A stretch of DNA of 64,000 nt from an uncultured Pirellulaceae bacterium (GTDB lineage Bacteria > Planctomycetota > Planctomycetia > Pirellulales > Pirellulaceae), in contig CALFUT010000001.1 of NCBI GenBank assembly GCA_937929805.1, forward strand, positions 124,001 through 188,000, in the 5' to 3' direction. Position 1 is the first letter of the stretch, and every line of letters starts with the position of its first letter. The position numbers and the translations under genes were made by a program. Positions 10,605 through 33,859 of the stretch are shown here, piece after piece. Below the pieces are notes generated by a model. The model did not search any database, was not told the DNA's origin, and saw only the letters and a program-made list of their open reading frames with translations.

Positions 10605-13232
10605 ATGGCTGACCAAAACGGAGCCAATACCGCACAACGAAAACAGCTCAACGAAAACCAAGAAATGGCGAAACGTCGCTCAACCAAGAAGAAATCAGCT
10701 GGCTCCCCCAGAAAATCGACCGCGTCGAACAGCAAACGGTCGCCCAGCAAATCAGCTCGGACGACCAAAAAAGGCACGCGGAAAAAGTCGCAACTTGACC
10801 TTGGGCTCGATGAAGACACCGACGAAATCCAAGCCGTTCCGCTACGCCTTGCCGCGCAAAAGCGATACCTGAACTACAGCCTGTCGGTCATCACCAGCCG
10901 AGCCCTCCCTGATGTGCGCGACGGGCTGAAGCCGGTTCAACGTCGAATCTTGTACACGATGAACCAGCAGAGCCTGACTTACACGGCCAAGTTCCGAAAA
11001 TCGGCGACCGTCGTCGGTCAAGTCATGGGTAACTATCACCCTCATGGTGACAGCAGTATTTATGACGCCATGGTCCGGCTGGCTCAACCGTTCGCCATGA
11101 GAATGCGATTGGTCGACGGCAATGGAAACTTTGGCTCGATCGATGCCGACAACGCAGCCGCCATGCGTTACACCGAGTGCCGGATGACTCGGATCAGCAC
11201 CGAAATGCTGGCCGACCTTGCAACTCGCACCGTCGCGTTCAAAGACAATTACGACGGCCGCTACCAAGAGCCCGTCGTTCTTCCCAGCCGAGTCCCCAAC
11301 TTGTTGGTCAACGGAGCCACCGGAATCGCGGTCGGCATGGCCACCAACATCCCGCCGCACAACTTGAAAGAAGTCTGCAACGCGCTGCTAAAGTTGCTAA
11401 AAGATCCCGAGATCAAAGACTATCAACTGGTCGCCAACGATGCCGTGCATGGCCCTGACTTTCCCACCGGCGGTCAGGTGATCAACACCAAAGAGGAACT
11501 GCGCGACATCTATCGCACCGGCCAAGGCCCGATCAAGCTGCGAGGAACCGGCAAGGTTGTCAAAGGGCCCAAAGGTTCTCGCGTGCTGCGAATCGATTCG
11601 ATTCCTTACAGCGTCGTCAAAGCCACATTGGTCGAACGAATTTCGGAATTGGTTTACAGCAGCAAGCTACCATTGGTCACCGAAGTCAAAGACTTGTCGA
11701 CCTCCAAGGAATTGCAGTCGGGCAAGGCGATCGAGGTCCACGACGACATCTGCATCGACCTGACGCTTAAGAAAGACGCGGACGAAAACAAAGTGCTCGC
11801 GTATCTTTACAAGCACACGCCACTGCAAACCAATTTCAACGTCAATCTGACGTGTCTGGTTCCCACGGAAAACCCCGAGGTTGGTCGTCCGGAGCGTTTG
11901 GGCTTGAAGGAAATCCTGTGGCATTTCTTGCACTTCCGTTTGGAAGTGGTCACCAAACGACTCGAAAACGAACTTGCGGCCCTCGAAAAGCGCCTGCACA
12001 TCCTGCAAGGTTTCGTCACCGTTTTCGACGCTCTGGACATCATCATCAAAATCATTCGCAAGTCGGATGGAAAAGCCGACGCGGCTCAAAAAATCATGAA
12101 ACGGTTCCCGGTCGGTAAGGGTAAAGATGGCTTGGACGCCGAACAAACCGATGCCATTCTGGAACTGAAGCTTTATCGACTTGCTCGTCTAGAAATCAAT
12201 CTGATCTTGGACGAACTGAAGGACAAAGAAAAACGCGCTCGGGCTATTCGCAAGTTGTTAAAAGAGGATGCCGACAGCGCTAACACCAACCAAGCTGGCC
12301 GTTGGAAAATTGTTCGCACGGAAATCGAATCTCTCGTCGCCGACTTCTGTAAAGACACGGCCTCCAAACGGCGAACTGCAATCACGTCCGACGTAGAAGA
12401 CGCCGAGTACACAGCCGAAGATTTCATCGTGGCCGAAGATTGCCACGTTCTGGTGACCAAAGATGGCTGGGTCAAACGCCAACGGCAGATCGCCGACCCC
12501 GCCAAAAGCCGAACTCGTCAGGGCGACAGCGTACTGGCCTGTGTCGCCGGCTCCACCCGAGCCACCATCGGATTCTTCAGTTCGCTTGGTGTCTGCTACA
12601 CCGCTCGCTTGGCTGACATTCCTGCGTCGACCGGTTTTGGCGAACCCGTTCAAAAACTATTCAAGCTGAAAGACGGAGAGAAAATTGTCTCGGTGCTTTC
12701 GTTCGACCAACGCGTCATCGGCAACATCGCCGACCCGAAAGACCCCGACTACTGTCCCGACATCCACGGATTGGCTGCCTCAAGTAACGGTTTCGCGTTC
12801 CGCTTTGGGCTCAGCTCATTCGCCGAACCCTCCACACGCAGCGGTCGCCGCTTCGGTCGCGTTTCCGCCGGGGCCTCCATCGTGGGCGTGTATCCGATCG
12901 ACGCCAACGAAACCATTCTAGCGATCTCGGAAAACTGTCGAGCCATGATCTGCCCAACCGAGGACATCAATTATCTTTCCGGGGCCGGCAAAGGTGTCAC
13001 GCTGATCAAGCTGGCCAAGGATGATCGACTGGTCGGCTTCAAACCGTCAGCCAGTGATCGCGACTTACTGTTGGTCGAAACCAATCGTGGTGCTCAGAAA
13101 ACGATTAGTACCGCCAAGTACAAAACAACTGGTCGCGGCGGCCGAGGCAACGAGATCCAGAAGAACGGCAAAATTGCCAAAATTGTCACGCCACCCATCG
13201 AGTCGCCCGAACCGTTGCCTGAGGAGGCGTGA
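10605..13232 (+). CDS. Type IIA DNA topoisomerase subunit A (GyrA/ParC family)
   Basis: An 875-residue breakage-reunion subunit. After a basic 75-residue N-terminal extension rich in Lys/Ser/Arg, the core begins [18 protein letters not shown]. The catalytic Tyr is Tyr189 ([10 protein letters not shown]), and the quinolone region [19 protein letters not shown] places Ser150 and Asp154 at the positions equivalent to E. coli Ser83/Asp87. A long coiled-coil region and a C-terminal beta-pinwheel (about 590-850) follow. I find no canonical QRRGGKG GyrA box; the nearest is GRGGRGNE near the very end, so whether this is gyrase or topoisomerase IV is open. An internal ATG at 10665 ([10 protein letters not shown]) is an alternative start. 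The partner B subunit is 800 bp downstream. Confidence 0.93.
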
Positions 13233-13367
13233 CAAATCCAGCCATCCAGAGGCTCAGGCAAGTGGCAGCATGGAACCCATCAAGAGTTAGCGAGATTATA
13301 TTGAGTTTCCAACATCCTTAAGGGTACCTTTAAACTTGCCATCTGCTTCAACTGCTAAAATGAACAC

Positions 13368-13955
13368 ATGATCAAATTTCAATACACTGGCGATGAACTC
13401 TACGCACGAATGGAGCGAGCTGTGGAAAAAGTAACGCAACGTCTAAGAAAAACGGTTGAAGTTATCGAAGGGGCCGAGATCCCTTATGCGGTCATTGGTG
13501 GCCATGCTGTCCGGGCGTGGGTGGCACAGGTCGACGAAGCCGCTGTTCGCAACACGCGCGATGTAGACATTTTGATTCGGCCAGCTGATTTGCCAGCACT
13601 GATTGAAGCGATGACATCGGCCGGCTTTCACCACCGACAAACCGCTGGCCTAGATATGTTTGTCGAGGAACCCAACGCGTCGGCTCGCGATGGCGTCCAT
13701 GTTTTATTGTGCGGCAAAATCGAGCGTTCAGGGGAACCGAATCCGGACGTTGAACCAAACACTCGGACTGACAACTTTCGCACGGTGGAACTACCCACCT
13801 TGGTACGCATGAAGCTAAACGCGTTTCGTGATAAAGATCGCGTTCATCTGCGAGACATGATTTCGCTGGGCATGATCGATGAAAGTTGGCCCTCGAAGTA
13901 TCCCGAAAAATTAAAACAGCGGCTGCAGGAATTGTTAGATGACCCTGATGGTTAG
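13368..13955 (+). CDS. Nucleotidyltransferase-fold protein (AbiEii/MNT-like)
   Basis: A 195-residue cytoplasmic protein with a minimal nucleotidyltransferase signature: IPYAVIGGHAVRAW followed by RNTRDVDILI (the GG and the D-x-D metal site) and a helix LIEAMTSAGF. The C-terminal half has TVELPTLVRMKLNAFRDKDRVHLRDM, typical of AbiEii/DUF6036-like proteins, some of which are toxins that modify tRNA or protein. No adjacent antitoxin gene is visible in the flanking 135 and 87 bp. It sits between the topoisomerase A and B genes in the same orientation, possibly co-transcribed. Substrate not assigned. Confidence 0.75.
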   Translation: MIKFQYTGDELYARMERAVEKVTQRLRKTVEVIEGAEIPYAVIGGHAVRAWVAQVDEAAVRNTRDVDILIRPADLPALIEAMTSAGFHHRQTAGLDMFVEEPNASARDGVHVLLCGKIERSGEPNPDVEPNTRTDNFRTVELPTLVRMKLNAFRDKDRVHLRDMISLGMIDESWPSKYPEKLKQRLQELLDDPDG

Positions 13956-14042
13956 CCATGGCATCTTACGCGCCGTCGGTTTTCGACCGCGTCACGTAAA
14001 CAGTTTCTTACTCGCCCCTTAGTTTCAATTCCGCATTCGAAA

Positions 14043-15953
14043 ATGGCTGTTACAAAATCCTACGGCGCTAAAGACATCGTTGCCCTTGAGGGCCTAGACC
14101 CGGTTCGAAAACGTCCCGGCATGTACATCGGCGGCGTTGGCATGGCGGGCTTGCACCACTTGGTCTGGGAAATCGTCGACAACAGTGTGGACGAAGCGAT
14201 GAACGGTCACGCGACCGAAATCACCGTCCAGCTTCATAAAGACGGCCACACCGTCACCGTGTCCGACAACGGTCGAGGCATCCCGGTCGACAAACACCCA
14301 AAAACGAAAAAGCCGGCATTAGAAATGGTGCTGACGATCCTGCACGCGGGTGGAAAATTCGAAGGCACGAACTACAAAACCGCTGGCGGCCTGCACGGTG
14401 TCGGTGCTTCGGTGGTCAACGCGTTGTCAAAGAAATTGGTCGCCGTCGTCCGTCGCGACGGAGCCCAATACCGGATGGAGTTCTCCAAAGGGATCGCTAA
14501 ATCAAAGCTACAAAAGCTGAAAGGGAAAATCCGAGGCACCGGCACCTCGATCACGTTTACTCCCGACCCAACGATCTTCCCAAAAACTAATTTCAATCCG
14601 GACACCATTCGAGCCCGCTTGGAAATTGCCAGCTTCCTCCATCGAGGCGTCAAGGTCACGTTCCAAGACGACGTCAACGGCAAGAAAGAAACGTTCCTCC
14701 ATGAGGAAGGCTTGGTCGACTTCCTTAAAAAGGTCATGAAGGACCGCAACGCTCGTCCCATTCACGACGCACCGTTTACCGAAGCTTGGGACGAAAAAGA
14801 ACGAGTCGAAATCGCACTCCAATGGACCGAAGCGACCGACGAACACGTCCGCAGCTACGTCAATGGAATCCCGACCGCCAACGGGGGAACCCACGAAAAC
14901 GGGTTTCGTGGCGGCCTGATCAAAGCAGTCCGCAACTATTTTGAAACGCACAACTTGATCCCGCGCGGGGTGAAAATCACGGCAGAAGACATCCGCGAAG
15001 GAATGGTTGCGATTGTCTCGGTCTTTATCTCCGACCCAGAGTTTCAAGGCCAGACCAAGGATCGCCTGAACAACGCCTACGTTCAAGGCGCGGTGGAGGG
15101 AACATTCCGCCCTGCCCTTGAACAATGGATGAACAACAATCGTAGCGTCGCCGACACCATCGTCGCCCGCATCATCGCCGCCGCCCGAGCCCGAGCCGCA
15201 TCCCGTGCGGCGTCGGCTGCCGTGTCGCGCAAGACTGGCGGAAAACGTTCGATGCTGCCGGGTAAACTGAGCGATTGCTTGAATAGTGGTCGAGGCAACA
15301 GCGAGCTTTTCATTGTCGAAGGTGACTCGGCGGGCGGAAGTGCCAAACAAGGACGCAACCGAAACTACCAAGCGATTCTGCCATTGCGTGGAAAGGTGCT
15401 CAACACCGAAAGCGCGACACTCAAGAAGATCATGGACAACAAGGAAATCCAAGATTTGGTCACCGCGATCGGATGCGGCATTGGTCCGAAGCTGAACGTC
15501 GCCCACATTCGCTACGACCGGATCATTCTGCTGGCGGATGCAGATTCCGATGGTCACCATATCACGACATTGCTGCTGACCTTTTTCTATCGTCACATGC
15601 CACAACTGATTGCCGACGGACGAATCTTCATCGCGCTGCCGCCGCTATACCGGATCGACATCGGTAAAGAAACCCATTGGGCAGCTGACGACGATGATCG
15701 CATTCGTATCTTGGCCGAGCACACCGGTCGAGCCAACCCGGAGATCATGCGATTCAAGGGATTGGGCGAGATGATGCCAAAAGTTCTATGGGAGACGACG
15801 CTCAACCCCGCCACGCGCCGTTTGCTACGAGTCGAAATCGACGACCAGCTGGAAACCGACCGCGTCATCAGCGACCTAATGGGCCGCGACGCCAGCGCCC
15901 GCTTCCGCTTCATCATGGACCGCGCCGAGGATGCTGAAGAAATTGATGTTTGA
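14043..15953 (+). CDS. Type IIA DNA topoisomerase subunit B (GyrB/ParE family)
   Basis: A 636-residue ATPase subunit that works with the A subunit upstream. The GHKL ATPase domain shows GLDPVRKRPGMYIG, EIVDNSVDEAMNG (the Mg-binding Asn), SDNGRGIPV and GGLHGVGASVVNALS; the transducer domain carries the QTKDRLNN loop; the TOPRIM domain shows IVEGDSAGGSAKQGR, PLRGKVLN and LADADSDGHHI. It ends shortly after RFRFIMDRAED. The TOPRIM linker is unusually Ala/Arg-rich (residues about 380-395). Length fits both GyrB and ParE without the enterobacterial GyrB insertion. The gene order A-NTase-B is not the usual B-A order. Confidence 0.94.
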   Translation: MAVTKSYGAKDIVALEGLDPVRKRPGMYIGGVGMAGLHHLVWEIVDNSVDEAMNGHATEITVQLHKDGHTVTVSDNGRGIPVDKHPKTKKPALEMVLTILHAGGKFEGTNYKTAGGLHGVGASVVNALSKKLVAVVRRDGAQYRMEFSKGIAKSKLQKLKGKIRGTGTSITFTPDPTIFPKTNFNPDTIRARLEIASFLHRGVKVTFQDDVNGKKETFLHEEGLVDFLKKVMKDRNARPIHDAPFTEAWDEKERVEIALQWTEATDEHVRSYVNGIPTANGGTHENGFRGGLIKAVRNYFETHNLIPRGVKITAEDIREGMVAIVSVFISDPEFQGQTKDRLNNAYVQGAVEGTFRPALEQWMNNNRSVADTIVARIIAAARARAASRAASAAVSRKTGGKRSMLPGKLSDCLNSGRGNSELFIVEGDSAGGSAKQGRNRNYQAILPLRGKVLNTESATLKKIMDNKEIQDLVTAIGCGIGPKLNVAHIRYDRIILLADADSDGHHITTLLLTFFYRHMPQLIADGRIFIALPPLYRIDIGKETHWAADDDDRIRILAEHTGRANPEIMRFKGLGEMMPKVLWETTLNPATRRLLRVEIDDQLETDRVISDLMGRDASARFRFIMDRAEDAEEIDV

Positions 15954-16131: not shown

Positions 16132-17598
16132 CTACGTCGAGCTAACGCCGTCAAGGATTGATGTCAGCTGCGCGACCGATTTTGGGCGATCTGAAATTGC
16201 CTTCCGCAAAGCGGAAACCGCAACGTCGCGTATTGCTTTCTCCGCAGCAGAAGTTGCGGGGAGCGACTCAGCGTCAGGCTCATCAGCACTGATGGTATCG
16301 GCTATGGATGCGGCTAGGTTTCCTTTGTCATGCGGGGATCGATTCGCCAAGTACCAATACGCGAGACCCCCGATTGCGTAAACGTCCGTTGCCGCACCAA
16401 CGCAACCAAATGCTTCTGAGATTTGTTCGGGAGCTGCGAAACCTAGCGTGCCGCCCAAGACGGGAGCTGTCGTGTCGGCATCACCCCACGTGGTTCCGCC
16501 GACGCATCTTGAGAATCCAAAGTCCGTAATGAAAACTCGATCTGAGCGATCAATCAAGATGTTTGAAGGGGTTAGGTCCCCATGCGTGATTCCTTCACGG
16601 TGCACGCGTTCAAGTGCATCACAGATAGTCTGCAGGTATCTGACGAAAATCTTACTTGAAACATCTTGAATCTCCACAAGCGAGCGTCCGTCGATCCAAT
16701 CCATCAACACATAGGGACCACCTTGCGGTGACTCGCCCCAGCCAAGATATCGAATGATGGAAGGATGTTGAATTTTCACCGACTGTTCAATTTCACGAAG
16801 AAACGTTTGCTTCGCATCTGCATCCTGCCAGAACGCTTTCCGTAGAAACTTGACAGCCACCGTTTCGTTGACTGCCGATTGCATTGACGCTCGGTAAACC
16901 TTGCCGAATCCTCCCGCGCCAATCAATTGACCAAGGACGAATTGGTTGTAACCCACTTGTGGCAATAAATCCGAAACGAATTCGGTTTTGATCGGATCAA
17001 CAGAAGGCCTAAGCATCTCGTAAAGCCGGGCCTGCCGTCTCCTAACCGTCCTTTCGTCAACACCGGTGCGAGTTGCTATCTCCGCTTGCGTTTCGCAACA
17101 CAATAAACCTTCCATTACAGAACGCAATTCGGGCGAAAGTCTATCCTCTAACTCAGAGATCAATTCGCCCAGCATCTCGGTTGCTTCGCACTCAGGGCTC
17201 TCCACCGCGTTGTGAATCGCTTCATCAAAAGAGATATCTCGAACGTTGCCGCCTCGCTTTAGCGCCCCGCTTCTCTCGATTGAACGAAGCATCTTTCGCT
17301 TCGCAATCGTCGCCAGCAGATGCCACAACGAGACGGACTGGCTGAATTGAATTCGGCTTCTCCTAGCCGCTGTGAAAAAACTGCCTAGTGCTGACTGGAC
17401 AACGTCTTCCGGGGCGATACTTCCTCGAAATTTGTCGCTCAACCTCGACGCCACCAAGGCAACCATCCGCAGCGAGTAGCGATCGACAATGCAGGCAGCG
17501 GATTGTTCGTCGCCCGATTTCCATCTGTCAACCAGCTCGCTGTCCGAGAGATCCTCTAGATTTTTGAAAGAATTCGAGTTTTGTCTGTCCGGTTCCAA
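16132..17598 (-). CDS. ECF sigma factor fused to a Ser/Thr protein kinase
   Basis: One uninterrupted 488-residue chain with two modules. Residues about 18-110 are sigma region 2 (LSDSELVDRWKSGDEQ, IAPEDVVQSALGSFF) and 143-197 are region 4 with a helix-turn-helix (QAEIATRTGVDERTVRRRQ). Residues about 218-487 are a Hanks-type kinase: glycine loop LIGAGGFGKVYRA, Lys250 in VAVKF, catalytic THGDLTPSNIL (Asp341, Asn346, Gly instead of Arg before Asp), ITDFGFS (359-361), FAAPEQIS and ATDVYAIGG. No membrane or sensor segment. The start is a TTG at 17598; no upstream ATG is in frame. Expected role: transcription initiation controlled by its own kinase. Divergent from the ferredoxin gene. Confidence 0.92.
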   Translation of the reverse strand: MEPDRQNSNSFKNLEDLSDSELVDRWKSGDEQSAACIVDRYSLRMVALVASRLSDKFRGSIAPEDVVQSALGSFFTAARRSRIQFSQSVSLWHLLATIAKRKMLRSIERSGALKRGGNVRDISFDEAIHNAVESPECEATEMLGELISELEDRLSPELRSVMEGLLCCETQAEIATRTGVDERTVRRRQARLYEMLRPSVDPIKTEFVSDLLPQVGYNQFVLGQLIGAGGFGKVYRASMQSAVNETVAVKFLRKAFWQDADAKQTFLREIEQSVKIQHPSIIRYLGWGESPQGGPYVLMDWIDGRSLVEIQDVSSKIFVRYLQTICDALERVHREGITHGDLTPSNILIDRSDRVFITDFGFSRCVGGTTWGDADTTAPVLGGTLGFAAPEQISEAFGCVGAATDVYAIGGLAYWYLANRSPHDKGNLAASIADTISADEPDAESLPATSAAEKAIRDVAVSALRKAISDRPKSVAQLTSILDGVSST

Positions 17599-17655
17599 GA
17601 GTCGTTTCTCACTAGCAGTATGACAACGTCTTAGTTTAACTATGGAGAAGATGAT

Positions 17656-31314: not shown

Positions 31315-31977
31315 ATGAATGACCCGAATTCCCAGCGTGAACTTGCAGATGACAGCACAATCGAACAAGCATTGCGCGAGCGGGGCGACGAAGCTTTGGC
31401 AGAACATTTTTCGGCTTTTCAGCCTCGCTTGAAGCAGATTATTCGGTTTCGAATGGATCGCCGGCTGGCAGCGAGGGTATCGGAATCGGATGTCATTCAA
31501 GAAACATACGTGCGAGCCGCGAAACGGATTGATCACTTTCTGGAACAACCCGACCTGCCGTTTTTTGTTTGGTTGCGGCTGGAAGTTCAGCAAAAACTTC
31601 ACGAACTGCATCGATTTCATCTGGGTGCTGCCAAACGAGATGCTCGAGCCGAAGTGAATTTCGGTTCGTCCAACCAGAACCACGGTCAGACCTCAATGTG
31701 CCTCGCTCATCATTTGGCGGCACAAATTACGTCCCCAAGCTTGGTCGTTCAGCGTGAAGAACAGTTGGAGTTCCTCAAACGGGCGTTGGATGAGATGAAC
31801 GAAACCGATCGCGAAGTCATCGCGTTGCGGCACTTCGAGGAGTTGTCGAATGTCGAGACTGCCAAGGTGCTTGGTCTGCAACCGTCCGCAGCCAGCAAAC
31901 GGTACCTACGAGCACTCAAACGAGTGGGTGAAATCATGAAAGAAGCACAGCAGTTCGATGAACCGGCCGGCCAGTAA
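31315..31977 (+). CDS. ECF-type RNA polymerase sigma factor
   Basis: A 220-residue sigma-70 family ECF factor. Region 2 spans about residues 28-105 (LKQIIRFRMDRRLAARVSES then DVIQETYVRAAKRI, FVWLRLEVQQKLHELHR), and region 4 about 160-210 (EMNETDREVIALRHFEELSN then VETAKVLGLQPSAASKRYLR). Its C-terminus overlaps the start of the kinase gene, so the two are translationally linked. In planctomycetes such ECFs are typically partnered with a neighbouring Hanks kinase that is thought to activate them by phosphorylation. Confidence 0.93.
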   Translation: MNDPNSQRELADDSTIEQALRERGDEALAEHFSAFQPRLKQIIRFRMDRRLAARVSESDVIQETYVRAAKRIDHFLEQPDLPFFVWLRLEVQQKLHELHRFHLGAAKRDARAEVNFGSSNQNHGQTSMCLAHHLAAQITSPSLVVQREEQLEFLKRALDEMNETDREVIALRHFEELSNVETAKVLGLQPSAASKRYLRALKRVGEIMKEAQQFDEPAGQ

Positions 31978-33859
31978 TCAAGAAATGCCTGACGAGGCTC
32001 ATGACGAAGCGTCCGAGCAACTGCTTGACTCGATCGTCGATGACTTCACGCGTCAGATCCGCGCCGGGCAGAACCCGCAAGTCGCAGACTTCCAAAAACG
32101 TTACCCTCAGCTGCATTGCCAATTGGGTGAATTGCTTGGTTCAGTCGCGGCGATTGAAGGTTTGAAATCCACTGCGGTTGACTCAACGGCGTCGTTTGAT
32201 CGAACTAAGTTTCCGATGCCCGAAACAATCGGCGAATACAATGTCTTATCTGAGCTGGGACGTGGTGGCATGGGAGTCGTCTACCTAGGCAAGCATCAAA
32301 CGTTGGGCCGTCAGGTTGCGATTAAAGTTCTGCCGCCCTCGTTGGCGTCGTCGGAAGATCGCGTTGATCGCTTTCAGGGTGAAGCACAGGCCGCTGCTCG
32401 ATTGCATCACACTCATATCGTCGGCGTGTTTGGCGTCGGACAGAATGAATCGTTTCACTACTACGTCATGGATTATGTCGCTGGTCGAGGACTGGACGAG
32501 TTGATTGGTGAACGAAAAACGAGGCGCAAGTCTTCCGATTCCGATTCTGCGTCGAGTGATCAGCCAAAAACCGCATCCAATCGTTCTGATCAAGCTCATT
32601 TTCGCTGGGCGGCGCGGGTTGGTGCGGACCTTGCCGATGCTTTGGCCTACGCGCATGGGCAAGGTGTTTTTCATCGTGATCTGAAGCCTTCGAATTTTTT
32701 GCTTGGAGACGACGGAGTCGTCAGGATTACCGATTTTGGTCTCGCAAAATATTCGGACAGCGATGTCCACCTAACGAAAACTGGCGATCTGATTGGAACG
32801 CCTCAATACCTTGCACCCGAGTCGCTCAAAGGTCAGTACGACGCGCAAAGCGAGGTCTATTGTCTTGGCTTGACGATTTACGAGCTGATCGCGTCGCAAC
32901 CGGCCTTCGCTGGCGGCAGTCCGGCTGAAGTGCTAAACAAGATCACGACCACTCGCCCGAGCCCGCTTCGCAAACTGAACGCAAAAATCCCAACTGACCT
33001 GTCGACTGTCATCGAGAAAGCGGTCTCGCAGGAACCCGAATCGCGATACCGTGATGCAAAAGCATTTCGAGACGACCTACTGGCGTTTCGCGAAGGTCGA
33101 GCCATCTCGGCGCGGCGTGCGTCGACGTGGCAGCACGCGAAACGGTGGGCTCGATCCAATCCGCTGGCGGCAAGCCTATCGGGTTTGAGTTTGGCTTTAC
33201 TGACGCTGGTTGCCGTCGTGACCTCGATTGGCTACTGGTCGACCAATGATGCGTTGGGCAAGCTGCAAGAGCAAACGGAACTTCTACAGCATCAGAAGGC
33301 GCTTCTACACGAACAGCAGACCGCGACCGCCGAAGCGCTTGAGCAGGCGATCGAGAATAAGAATGAGGCGATCGAAAATGAGAGGAAGACCGCCGAAGGG
33401 ATCGCGCTGGCTGAAAAAAATGTGGCGATCACCATGGAAGTATTCGACGAAATGTTCCGGAAGGTGGCGACGCAAGAGGCGTGGGAGATTGATGGGTTCA
33501 ACGAACTGACTGGGTTTGAGATGTCGTTGACCGATGCCGATGCAGAGTTTCTGGACAAACTGCTGACCTTCTACCGTCAATTTGCAGAACAGAATGCCGA
33601 CAACGTTGACCTAGCCGCCGAGCTCGCGCGGTCCTACCGTCGCATGGGGAACATCTACCAGCTGATCAAGCAGCCGGCCGAGGCCATCAACGCGTACCGC
33701 GAGGCCGTTAGTTTGTACCAATGGGTCTCGCTGGCCGATCCGGATTCTGGCGACGCTCAACTGGCCGCGTTTGAAGCCAATGAGGAACTCTCTAGGCTGT
33801 TGGAACAGCAAGAATCGTCATCTGCGGCAGTCGGCCCAAGCCGCGACTTGGATCGGTAA
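31958..33859 (+). CDS. Membrane Ser/Thr protein kinase with coiled coil and TPR-like tail
   Basis: A 633-residue Hanks-type kinase. After an 85-residue N-terminus, the kinase domain (about 93-380) shows LGRGGMGVVYLG, Lys123 in AIKVL, catalytic FHRDLKPSNFLL (Asp241), ITDFGLA (259-261) and YLAPESL, with a Ser-rich insertion at about 188-210. One membrane helix follows (about 403-426), then a Gln/Glu-rich coiled coil and TPR-like helices (about 545-630) predicted to be outside the membrane. The start at 31958 overlaps the sigma gene by 20 bp; the ATG at 31985 would remove the overlap. Presumed role: sense an extracytoplasmic cue and control the partner sigma factor. Confidence 0.93.
   Translation: MNRPASNQEMPDEAHDEASEQLLDSIVDDFTRQIRAGQNPQVADFQKRYPQLHCQLGELLGSVAAIEGLKSTAVDSTASFDRTKFPMPETIGEYNVLSELGRGGMGVVYLGKHQTLGRQVAIKVLPPSLASSEDRVDRFQGEAQAAARLHHTHIVGVFGVGQNESFHYYVMDYVAGRGLDELIGERKTRRKSSDSDSASSDQPKTASNRSDQAHFRWAARVGADLADALAYAHGQGVFHRDLKPSNFLLGDDGVVRITDFGLAKYSDSDVHLTKTGDLIGTPQYLAPESLKGQYDAQSEVYCLGLTIYELIASQPAFAGGSPAEVLNKITTTRPSPLRKLNAKIPTDLSTVIEKAVSQEPESRYRDAKAFRDDLLAFREGRAISARRASTWQHAKRWARSNPLAASLSGLSLALLTLVAVVTSIGYWSTNDALGKLQEQTELLQHQKALLHEQQTATAEALEQAIENKNEAIENERKTAEGIALAEKNVAITMEVFDEMFRKVATQEAWEIDGFNELTGFEMSLTDADAEFLDKLLTFYRQFAEQNADNVDLAAELARSYRRMGNIYQLIKQPAEAINAYREAVSLYQWVSLADPDSGDAQLAAFEANEELSRLLEQQESSSAAVGPSRDLDR

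Follow-up and report, generated by a model that had tools for sequence, protein, structure and literature searches.

Can an ECF sigma factor and the kinase that acts on it be one and the same polypeptide, and which gene would such a protein control? The question is raised by a gene in a stretch of 64,000 nucleotides from an uncultured Pirellulaceae bacterium (the window), for which an earlier note, made from the letters alone, had proposed a single 488-residue frame carrying sigma regions 2 and 4 followed by a kinase. Profile matches bear out this domain order: Pfam Sigma70_ECF (PF07638) covers residues 20–189 (59.3 bits, cut-off 21.1) and Pkinase (PF00069) residues 222–473 (119.8 bits, cut-off 31.7). 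The interval given for the frame, 16132..17598, was right; the strand, which had been left unstated, is minus, and the opposite (plus) strand of this interval is full of stops. The features of the locus are listed in Table 1.

Table 1. Coordinates of the sigma-kinase gene, its divergent neighbour and the DNA between them (positions in the window)
Feature	Position	Strand	Remarks
Sigma-kinase gene	17598..16132	minus	488 aa; start codon TTG (17598), stop codon 16132-16134
Sigma2 domain, residues 15-116	17251..17556	minus	PF07638; helices in model, pLDDT mostly >90
Ser69, proposed phosphosite	17392..17394	minus	sits where canonical QE has its acid in sigma2.2
Ser73, second candidate site	17380..17382	minus	one helix turn past Ser69
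Sigma4 domain, residues 137-196	17011..17190	minus	within PF07638 match; helices in model
Sigma-kinase linker, residues 197-215	16954..17010	minus	poorly conserved
Hanks-type kinase domain, residues 216-486	16141..16953	minus	PF00069; PknB top Foldseek match
Kinase catalytic sites	Lys250 16849-16851, Asp341 16576-16578, DFG 16516-16524	minus	
Candidate bipartite element TGTCCGGTT-N10-TTTCTCAC	17586..17612	plus	points to ferredoxin gene; overlaps sigma-kinase start codon
FdxA-like ferredoxin gene, 88 aa	17656..17922	plus	divergent; 57 bases from sigma-kinase gene

The TTG lies at the same position in 14 of the first 20 close relatives (L001 to L049), and other start codons are required in L037 and L045–L049. 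Sigma2 and sigma4 are present without sigma3, as expected of an ECF protein, both in the PF07638 match and in the two helical domains of the structural model; PF08281 alone on sigma4 scores 20.8 bits, under its cut-off of 25.7. The sigma half is thus an ECF sigma factor (group IV sigma-70), with predicted binding to core RNA polymerase and to a promoter. It is the top scorer among the 11 Sigma70_ECF matches in the window's own genome, in a frame of 522 residues (306 for the next longest match). The AlphaFold2 model, built from 40 fused relatives, has a mean pLDDT of 86.6 and a pTM of 0.61. It shows helical domains at about 15–116 and 137–196 and linkers that are loose, and residues 216–486 form strands and helices in a kinase-like order. 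The linker between sigma and kinase is 13–43 aa long in the 40 members of alignment A1, and pLDDT is low at residues 199–205. The top PDB match of the model in Foldseek is PknB of M. tuberculosis; among the 50 and 60 matches listed, respectively, Foldseek and a PDB profile search gave nothing but kinases, which leaves the sigma half without a structural match of its own among them. The maximum 19-residue Kyte-Doolittle mean is 1.19, giving no membrane segment in the sigma-kinase, which, by its sequence, is a soluble single chain without membrane or sensor segment, as had been claimed. The contrast drawn in the earlier note with the pair at 31315–33859 of the window also stands: that locus has a separate sigma ORF and a kinase with a strongly hydrophobic segment (2.26, residue 403). 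It is an ordinary separate sigma/kinase pair, the sigma2.2 region of which retains the acidic QE.

Residue inspection showed Lys250, Asp341 and DFG to be present in the kinase, as had been reported, and the window protein also keeps Glu269, the rest of His339-Gly340-Asp341, Asn346, the DFG at 359–361, the APE Glu391 and the alphaF Asp. Across 56 fused members, the catalytic Lys, the HxD Asp and the Asn are found in 56/56 and the DFG Asp in 55/56, the one gap being the stop-interrupted L047, the kinase frame of which continues past the interrupting stop; the APE Glu and alphaF Asp are absent from L011, L012 and L047 only. The middle residue of HxD is Gly in 44/56, Cys in 11/56 and Ala in 1/56, and the activation segment is weakly conserved. 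Both observations agree with, but do not prove, the suggestion of the earlier note that a kinase with HGD in place of HRD may be independent of activation-loop phosphorylation. The catalytic-loop Lys of HRDLKxxN is replaced by Thr343 in the window protein, and this position is occupied by T in 34, K in 18, S in 2, C in 1 and R in 1 of the 56 members. This Lys is also missing from tyrosine kinases and Bud32, and its loss is therefore not decisive. The loop of the window protein reads HGDLTPxN, and similar loops occur in Bud32/KEOPS kinases; Bud32 models match the window protein weakly. The kinase half can be assigned to the Hanks-type Ser/Thr kinases, with phosphotransfer as its predicted activity.

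The same two-domain order, which the earlier note had suggested looking for in other planctomycetes, was found in 56 distinct fused sequences from Planctomycetia (75 ORFs before identical copies were dropped), a count that takes in the contig-cut L080 and L090 and the stop-interrupted L047. In a sample of 396 genomes of the order (E <= 1e-40), 36 genomes gave matches, spanning both halves in 33 and the kinase only in 3; within those 33, G107 has a stop between the halves and G351 a stop inside the kinase. Relatives with 43–56% identity over most of their length came from 21 places in 19 other genomes of this sample, and one further such relative came from a phylum sample of 392 genomes (E <= 1e-35). 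The phylum sample contributed eight additional fused members, from a second family of Planctomycetia, and contained no fusion outside this class, three genomes of other classes matching in the kinase only. A scan of the named GTDB collection with two peptide patterns (best 80 of 214 kept, 78 loci returned) yielded 26 close relatives (L072–L097) from Stieleria, Roseiconus, Roseimaritima, Rhodopirellula (class Planctomycetia, order Pirellulales), Neorhodopirellula and Pirellula-like MAGs. L080, L090, L092 and L097 reach contig ends, L096 is split over two frames, and a stop precedes DFG in L082. The 52 more distant loci among the best 80 of 214 (L098–L149) held kinases or separate genes only. 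The fused architecture is, thus, seen only in Planctomycetia among the genomes sampled and the best 80 of 214 in the GTDB scan; more distant or foreign fusions may exist, because the searches were limited to these samples and to two peptide patterns.

The sigma tree groups 23 fused and 3 split members in a single clade, apart from 69 other ECFs (SH-aLRT 97). The phylogeny proposed in the earlier note as a check thus placed the fused members together, with nearest relatives that include kinase-adjacent sigmas carrying Ser. In the kinase tree (midpoint root), the fused halves and two split kinases form one clade of 27 rows (SH-aLRT 88); four of these rows bear the label 'other' but are fused members listed under a different locus name. 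Since each half forms a single clade, the sigma and kinase halves share a history. The split loci L010 and L015, with separate overlapping sigma and kinase ORFs, are the same kind of locus. A stop lies between the halves in L051, and an in-frame stop lies just before DFG in L047 and L082, which are core-identical and probably come from one organism; the interruptions in L047, L082, L051 and L096 could be due to decay, sequencing error or natural splitting. Two sigma-kinase loci are present in Rhodopirellula sp. JC639 (L079, L089), G339 (contig 1) and G242.

The earlier note had missed not only the strand and the replacement of the catalytic-loop Lys by Thr or Ser in 36/56 members, but also the divergent ferredoxin gene and the element between the two genes. 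A divergent homolog of this ferredoxin lies less than 500 bases from the start of the sigma domain in 55/56 distinct fused loci, with 47–75% identity (the window's own ferredoxin excluded). The exception is L090, in which the contig end leaves only 15 bases upstream. The ferredoxin is also found at the split or interrupted loci L010, L015 and L051, and no homolog of it was found at 64 other ECF loci of six genomes (stretches of mostly 7.5 kb, with two overlapping pairs among the 64). A comparison of 27 loci (the window and the 26 named ones) gave the ferredoxin in 25, the other two being cut on that side, and no other neighbour cluster in more than 9/27, out-of-frame overlapping ORFs apart. 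In Rhodopirellula sp. JC639, the ferredoxin is present at both sigma-kinase loci, suggesting that the two genes were duplicated as a unit. That the fused sigma-kinase and the ferredoxin beside it make up a conserved unit is established. By eye, gyrA-like and gyrB-like genes surround a nucleotidyltransferase-like ORF just before the sigma-kinase (10605–15953 of the window); these genes did not cluster with ORFs of the 26 named loci.

The ferredoxin fits the FdxA pattern C-x2-C-x4-C-x3-CP ... C-x2-C-x2-C-x3-CP, which we take to be that of 7Fe ferredoxins of the FdxA and Azotobacter FdI type. It resembles the FdxA-type proteins in its eight cluster cysteines (C9, 12, 17, 21, 40, 43, 46 and 50), kept in 46/46 sigma-kinase-linked ferredoxins examined, but differs from them in being a paralog tied to a sigma-kinase and in missing the NCBIfam FdxA equivalog cut-offs (99.1 bits of 125, 97.1 of 135). 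Another ferredoxin of FdxA-like kind is encoded on a different contig of the window's genome. Among 30 genomes chosen for having no detected fused gene (one of which, G044, has a split pair), 29 carry an FdxA-like gene, and in 17 a stand-alone sigma gene adjoins it divergently; the sigma2.2 of these 17 sigmas is mostly acidic, and no kinase was present within the stretch fetched. This stand-alone ECF-like sigma (EDLxAxxF-like motif) with an FdxA-like gene (L253–L269, L285–L287, L289, L292–L294) is a second sigma/ferredoxin pairing, occurring in many genomes of the order and a few of the class. The stand-alone sigma is also present in 10/16 fusion-bearing genomes (E <= 1e-48), and for 7/10 the flank fetched includes a ferredoxin gene. 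A ferredoxin tree (85 columns, weak deep branches) separates the sigma-kinase-linked ferredoxins from all others with 2 label changes, suggesting that they are largely a separate set.

A two-block search upstream of 35 sigma-kinase-linked ferredoxin genes recovered TGTCC[GA] preceded by an AT-rich block. Its EM score of 177, against 67–70 for three shuffled sets, is inflated by the relatedness of the sequences, by the fewer restarts with which the shuffled sets were run, and by overlap with the ribosome-binding site and start of the sigma-kinase gene. A second block follows TGTCCG at a near-fixed distance. In the close group it resembles TTTCTCAC; roughly a dozen of the distant members have, by eye, a form like [AT]CG[GAC]AT[GT], and in L004, L006–L008 and L061–L064 the block is weak or absent. 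CGGACA is retained despite a different frame (L011, L012) or a stop within it (L037), and the element therefore seems to be held as DNA. In ten genomes, the close-group pattern matched 19 places with up to two mismatches. All 11 matches with 0–1 mismatch fell at sigma-kinase loci, as expected of a pattern derived from such loci, and G339 has the element at both of its loci; matches elsewhere, all with two mismatches, numbered 8, against 7 for the reversed control. The scan thus gave no excess of further targets over the reversed control in these ten genomes at up to two mismatches. A simple consensus scan found no sigma-70-like site toward the ferredoxin in the window, and the ferredoxins linked to stand-alone sigmas have instead a TTGACA...TAnnAT-like pair upstream (21 sequences). 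The element is, thus, a candidate promoter that does not appear to be sigma-70-like.

The residue proposed to connect the two halves of the protein is in sigma2.2. Position 69 is occupied by S in 52, T in 1, D in 1 and E in 1 of the 55 aligned fused members (the 56th, L090, has no letters here), and position 73 by S in 50, A in 2, C in 1, E in 1 and T in 1. The two acidic residues at position 69 belong to L011 (Glu) and L012 (Asp) only, both of which have a kinase lacking its C-lobe; L011 and L012 are sisters, so the correlation of acid and short kinase probably reflects one event. In these loci (L011, 1465–2739; L012, 501–1697) the kinase stops about 30–40 residues past DFG. A frameshift was rejected as the cause, the fetched loci having no C-lobe in any frame. 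The short kinases may be active, though atypical, and by impression their tails may be those of a Bud32-like short kinase. Ser69 is retained in L047 (core identical to L082) despite the stop inside its kinase. The sigma2.2 motif is APED in the window protein; in the family, the first place is D in 42/55 and the fourth D/E in 48/55. As most members keep these other acids, the sigma may have activity even when unphosphorylated.

The distribution of residues at position 69 was compared in 72 ECF matches from six genomes, two of which had no letters at this position and were dropped. Ser was found in 4/4 fused proteins, 7/37 with a downstream kinase and 2/28 without a kinase, and Asp/Glu in 0/4, 22/37 and 21/28, respectively (20/27 for the last group without L187 2–346, which duplicates a kinase-adjacent gene and is cut by the locus edge). 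The single ECF with an upstream kinase has Glu. Ser at position 69 is a trait of one ECF superclade, in which 2/5 members without a neighbouring kinase carry it too; the kinase-linked cases of Ser fall in this superclade, that of the fused family, and descent thus explains part of the link between Ser and kinase. Among six phylogenetically independent pairs on supported branches, those in which Ser69 and kinase linkage went the same way numbered only 0.9 on average.

EcfP and EcfK are activated via phosphorylation of sigma2.2 by separate kinases, EcfK being phosphorylated in the sigma2-sigma4 loop too (PMC8999054, PMC13147305, PMC8103513). According to these papers, reviews and a 2026 study, kinase-controlled ECFs have lost the sigma2.2 charge and regain it by phosphorylation, with Thr as phospho-acceptor in ECF43 and Ser in ECF59/60; in other groups the acids are kept and a Ser/Thr lies within the motif or near it (PMC8103513, PMC8999054, PMC13147305). 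ECF61, ECF62 and ECF217 are also listed as phosphorylation groups (PMC8999054). In ECF43, DAED is described as replaced by uncharged residues with the phospho-Thr (STTA/QTTA). The sigma-kinase resembles the ECF43 systems (EcfP/PknT, EcfK/PknS) in combining an ECF with a Hanks-type kinase and in having a putative acceptor in or beside the acidic sigma2.2 motif. It differs from them in being one soluble chain, whereas the ECF43 kinase is encoded by a separate adjacent gene, in placing a Ser where QE has its E, not a Thr within DxxD, in mostly keeping the DxxD acids, and in having a ferredoxin as constant neighbour. Two defining features of ECF43, the uncharged DAED position and the separate kinase gene, fail here, and the protein is therefore not filed in this group. 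Among the planctomycete STPK-associated ECFs, ECF59 and old ECF60 carry Ser; the nearest relatives in the sigma tree include kinase-adjacent sigmas with Ser at the same place, but in these relatives the sigma and kinase genes are separate and the loci lack the ferredoxin. Other domains are fused to an ECF in one chain in ECF41, ECF42, ECF57, ECF238 and planctomycete ECF-WD40 proteins; their extensions are SnoaL_2, TPR, WD40 or a metal-binding tail, whereas that of the window protein is a full kinase. A survey of 307 kinase architectures in Planctomycetota cites ECF-WD40 proteins; 'Sigma70' is absent from its main text, and its supplementary tables might list the architecture (PMC11032199). In the literature searched, mostly papers outside subscription, no description of a sigma-kinase fusion or of a ferredoxin-linked sigma-kinase was recognised. 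ECF activation by kinases encoded by separate genes is already known in a few bacteria, and the single-chain, ferredoxin-linked form is new to this literature.

In the best-supported reading, the sigma is switched on at Ser69 by the kinase fused to it and then reads the ferredoxin element, working in the manner of the EcfP/PknT systems; we regard this proposal, made by comparison of sequences, as about equally likely to be right or wrong. The sigma part would be idle or weak, because Ser69 replaces the sigma2.2 acid that touches the RNA polymerase clamp. The active kinase would phosphorylate Ser69, and perhaps Ser73, in the same molecule or a partner molecule, and the phosphate on Ser69 would restore the charge, allowing the sigma to bind RNA polymerase. 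The bound sigma would then read the non-sigma-70 element, leading to transcription of the ferredoxin gene. The input would be cytoplasmic; iron-sulfur or redox state is the likeliest, and the ferredoxin itself might report it, so closing a feedback loop; that the ferredoxin also acts as a sensor is a further guess. The earlier note had offered a cytoplasmic signal or self-phosphorylation. The second is favoured, because position 69 is Ser/Thr in 53/55 members and acidic only in the C-lobe-less sisters L011 and L012, and the two options can hold together. The complete version, in which an autophosphorylating sigma has one strong target, the ferredoxin, and the ferredoxin sets kinase activity as a membrane-free redox or iron-sulfur switch across Planctomycetia, is possible but tentative.

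The kinase domain might instead be a C-terminal lid, with binding of ATP, a ligand or the ferredoxin freeing the sigma without phosphate transfer. Single-chain regulation of ECFs by C-terminal extensions (SnoaL_2, TPR) is known (PMC8999054, PMC8103513), and the change of the catalytic-loop Lys to Thr/Ser in 36/56, together with the weakly conserved activation segment, would suit a lid. A mere lid would not need the remaining catalytic residues, which are near-universal, and leaves the Ser/Thr at position 69 unexplained; we consider this explanation unlikely. A sensorless kinase can have its target in a different chain, and bacterial STPKs often have several targets. The kinase could act chiefly on proteins other than its sigma (RNA polymerase, a further regulator or the ferredoxin), with the sigma bringing it to the promoter. 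This seems quite unlikely given the target-like residue in the fused sigma half (S in 52 and T in 1 of 55) and the ferredoxin as sole widely conserved neighbour in the 27 loci compared.

The ferredoxin gene could also be a passive neighbour with a role of its own, the sigma-kinase running a distant regulon. FdxA-like genes in 29/30 genomes with no detected fused gene, with a divergently adjoining stand-alone sigma in 17/30, are consistent with this, but the linked ferredoxins largely form a set apart (2 label changes) and have an upstream element of their own, which has no excess elsewhere in ten genomes, and other neighbours are not widely conserved; such independence is improbable. That the frame yields two separate proteins could be argued from the stop between the halves in L051 and the separate ORFs of L010 and L015. 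A joining error, named in the earlier note as what would overturn its claim, was rejected, as the same fused frame occurs in 56 distinct sequences across many assemblies, several of them single-contig genomes, and either version of this explanation is hardly credible. The preferred reading remains activation of the sigma by its own kinase at Ser69.

If the complete version holds, Planctomycetia would possess a redox or iron-sulfur switch made of two genes, independent of the membrane and passed on together. As both parts are in one chain, a single purified protein is enough to test for action of the kinase on the sigma attached to it. Within the family, members with Ser and an intact kinase contrast naturally with those that have Asp/Glu and a cut-down kinase. 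The ferredoxin, as constant partner, is a concrete candidate for the output, and perhaps the input, of planctomycete sigma-kinase signalling.
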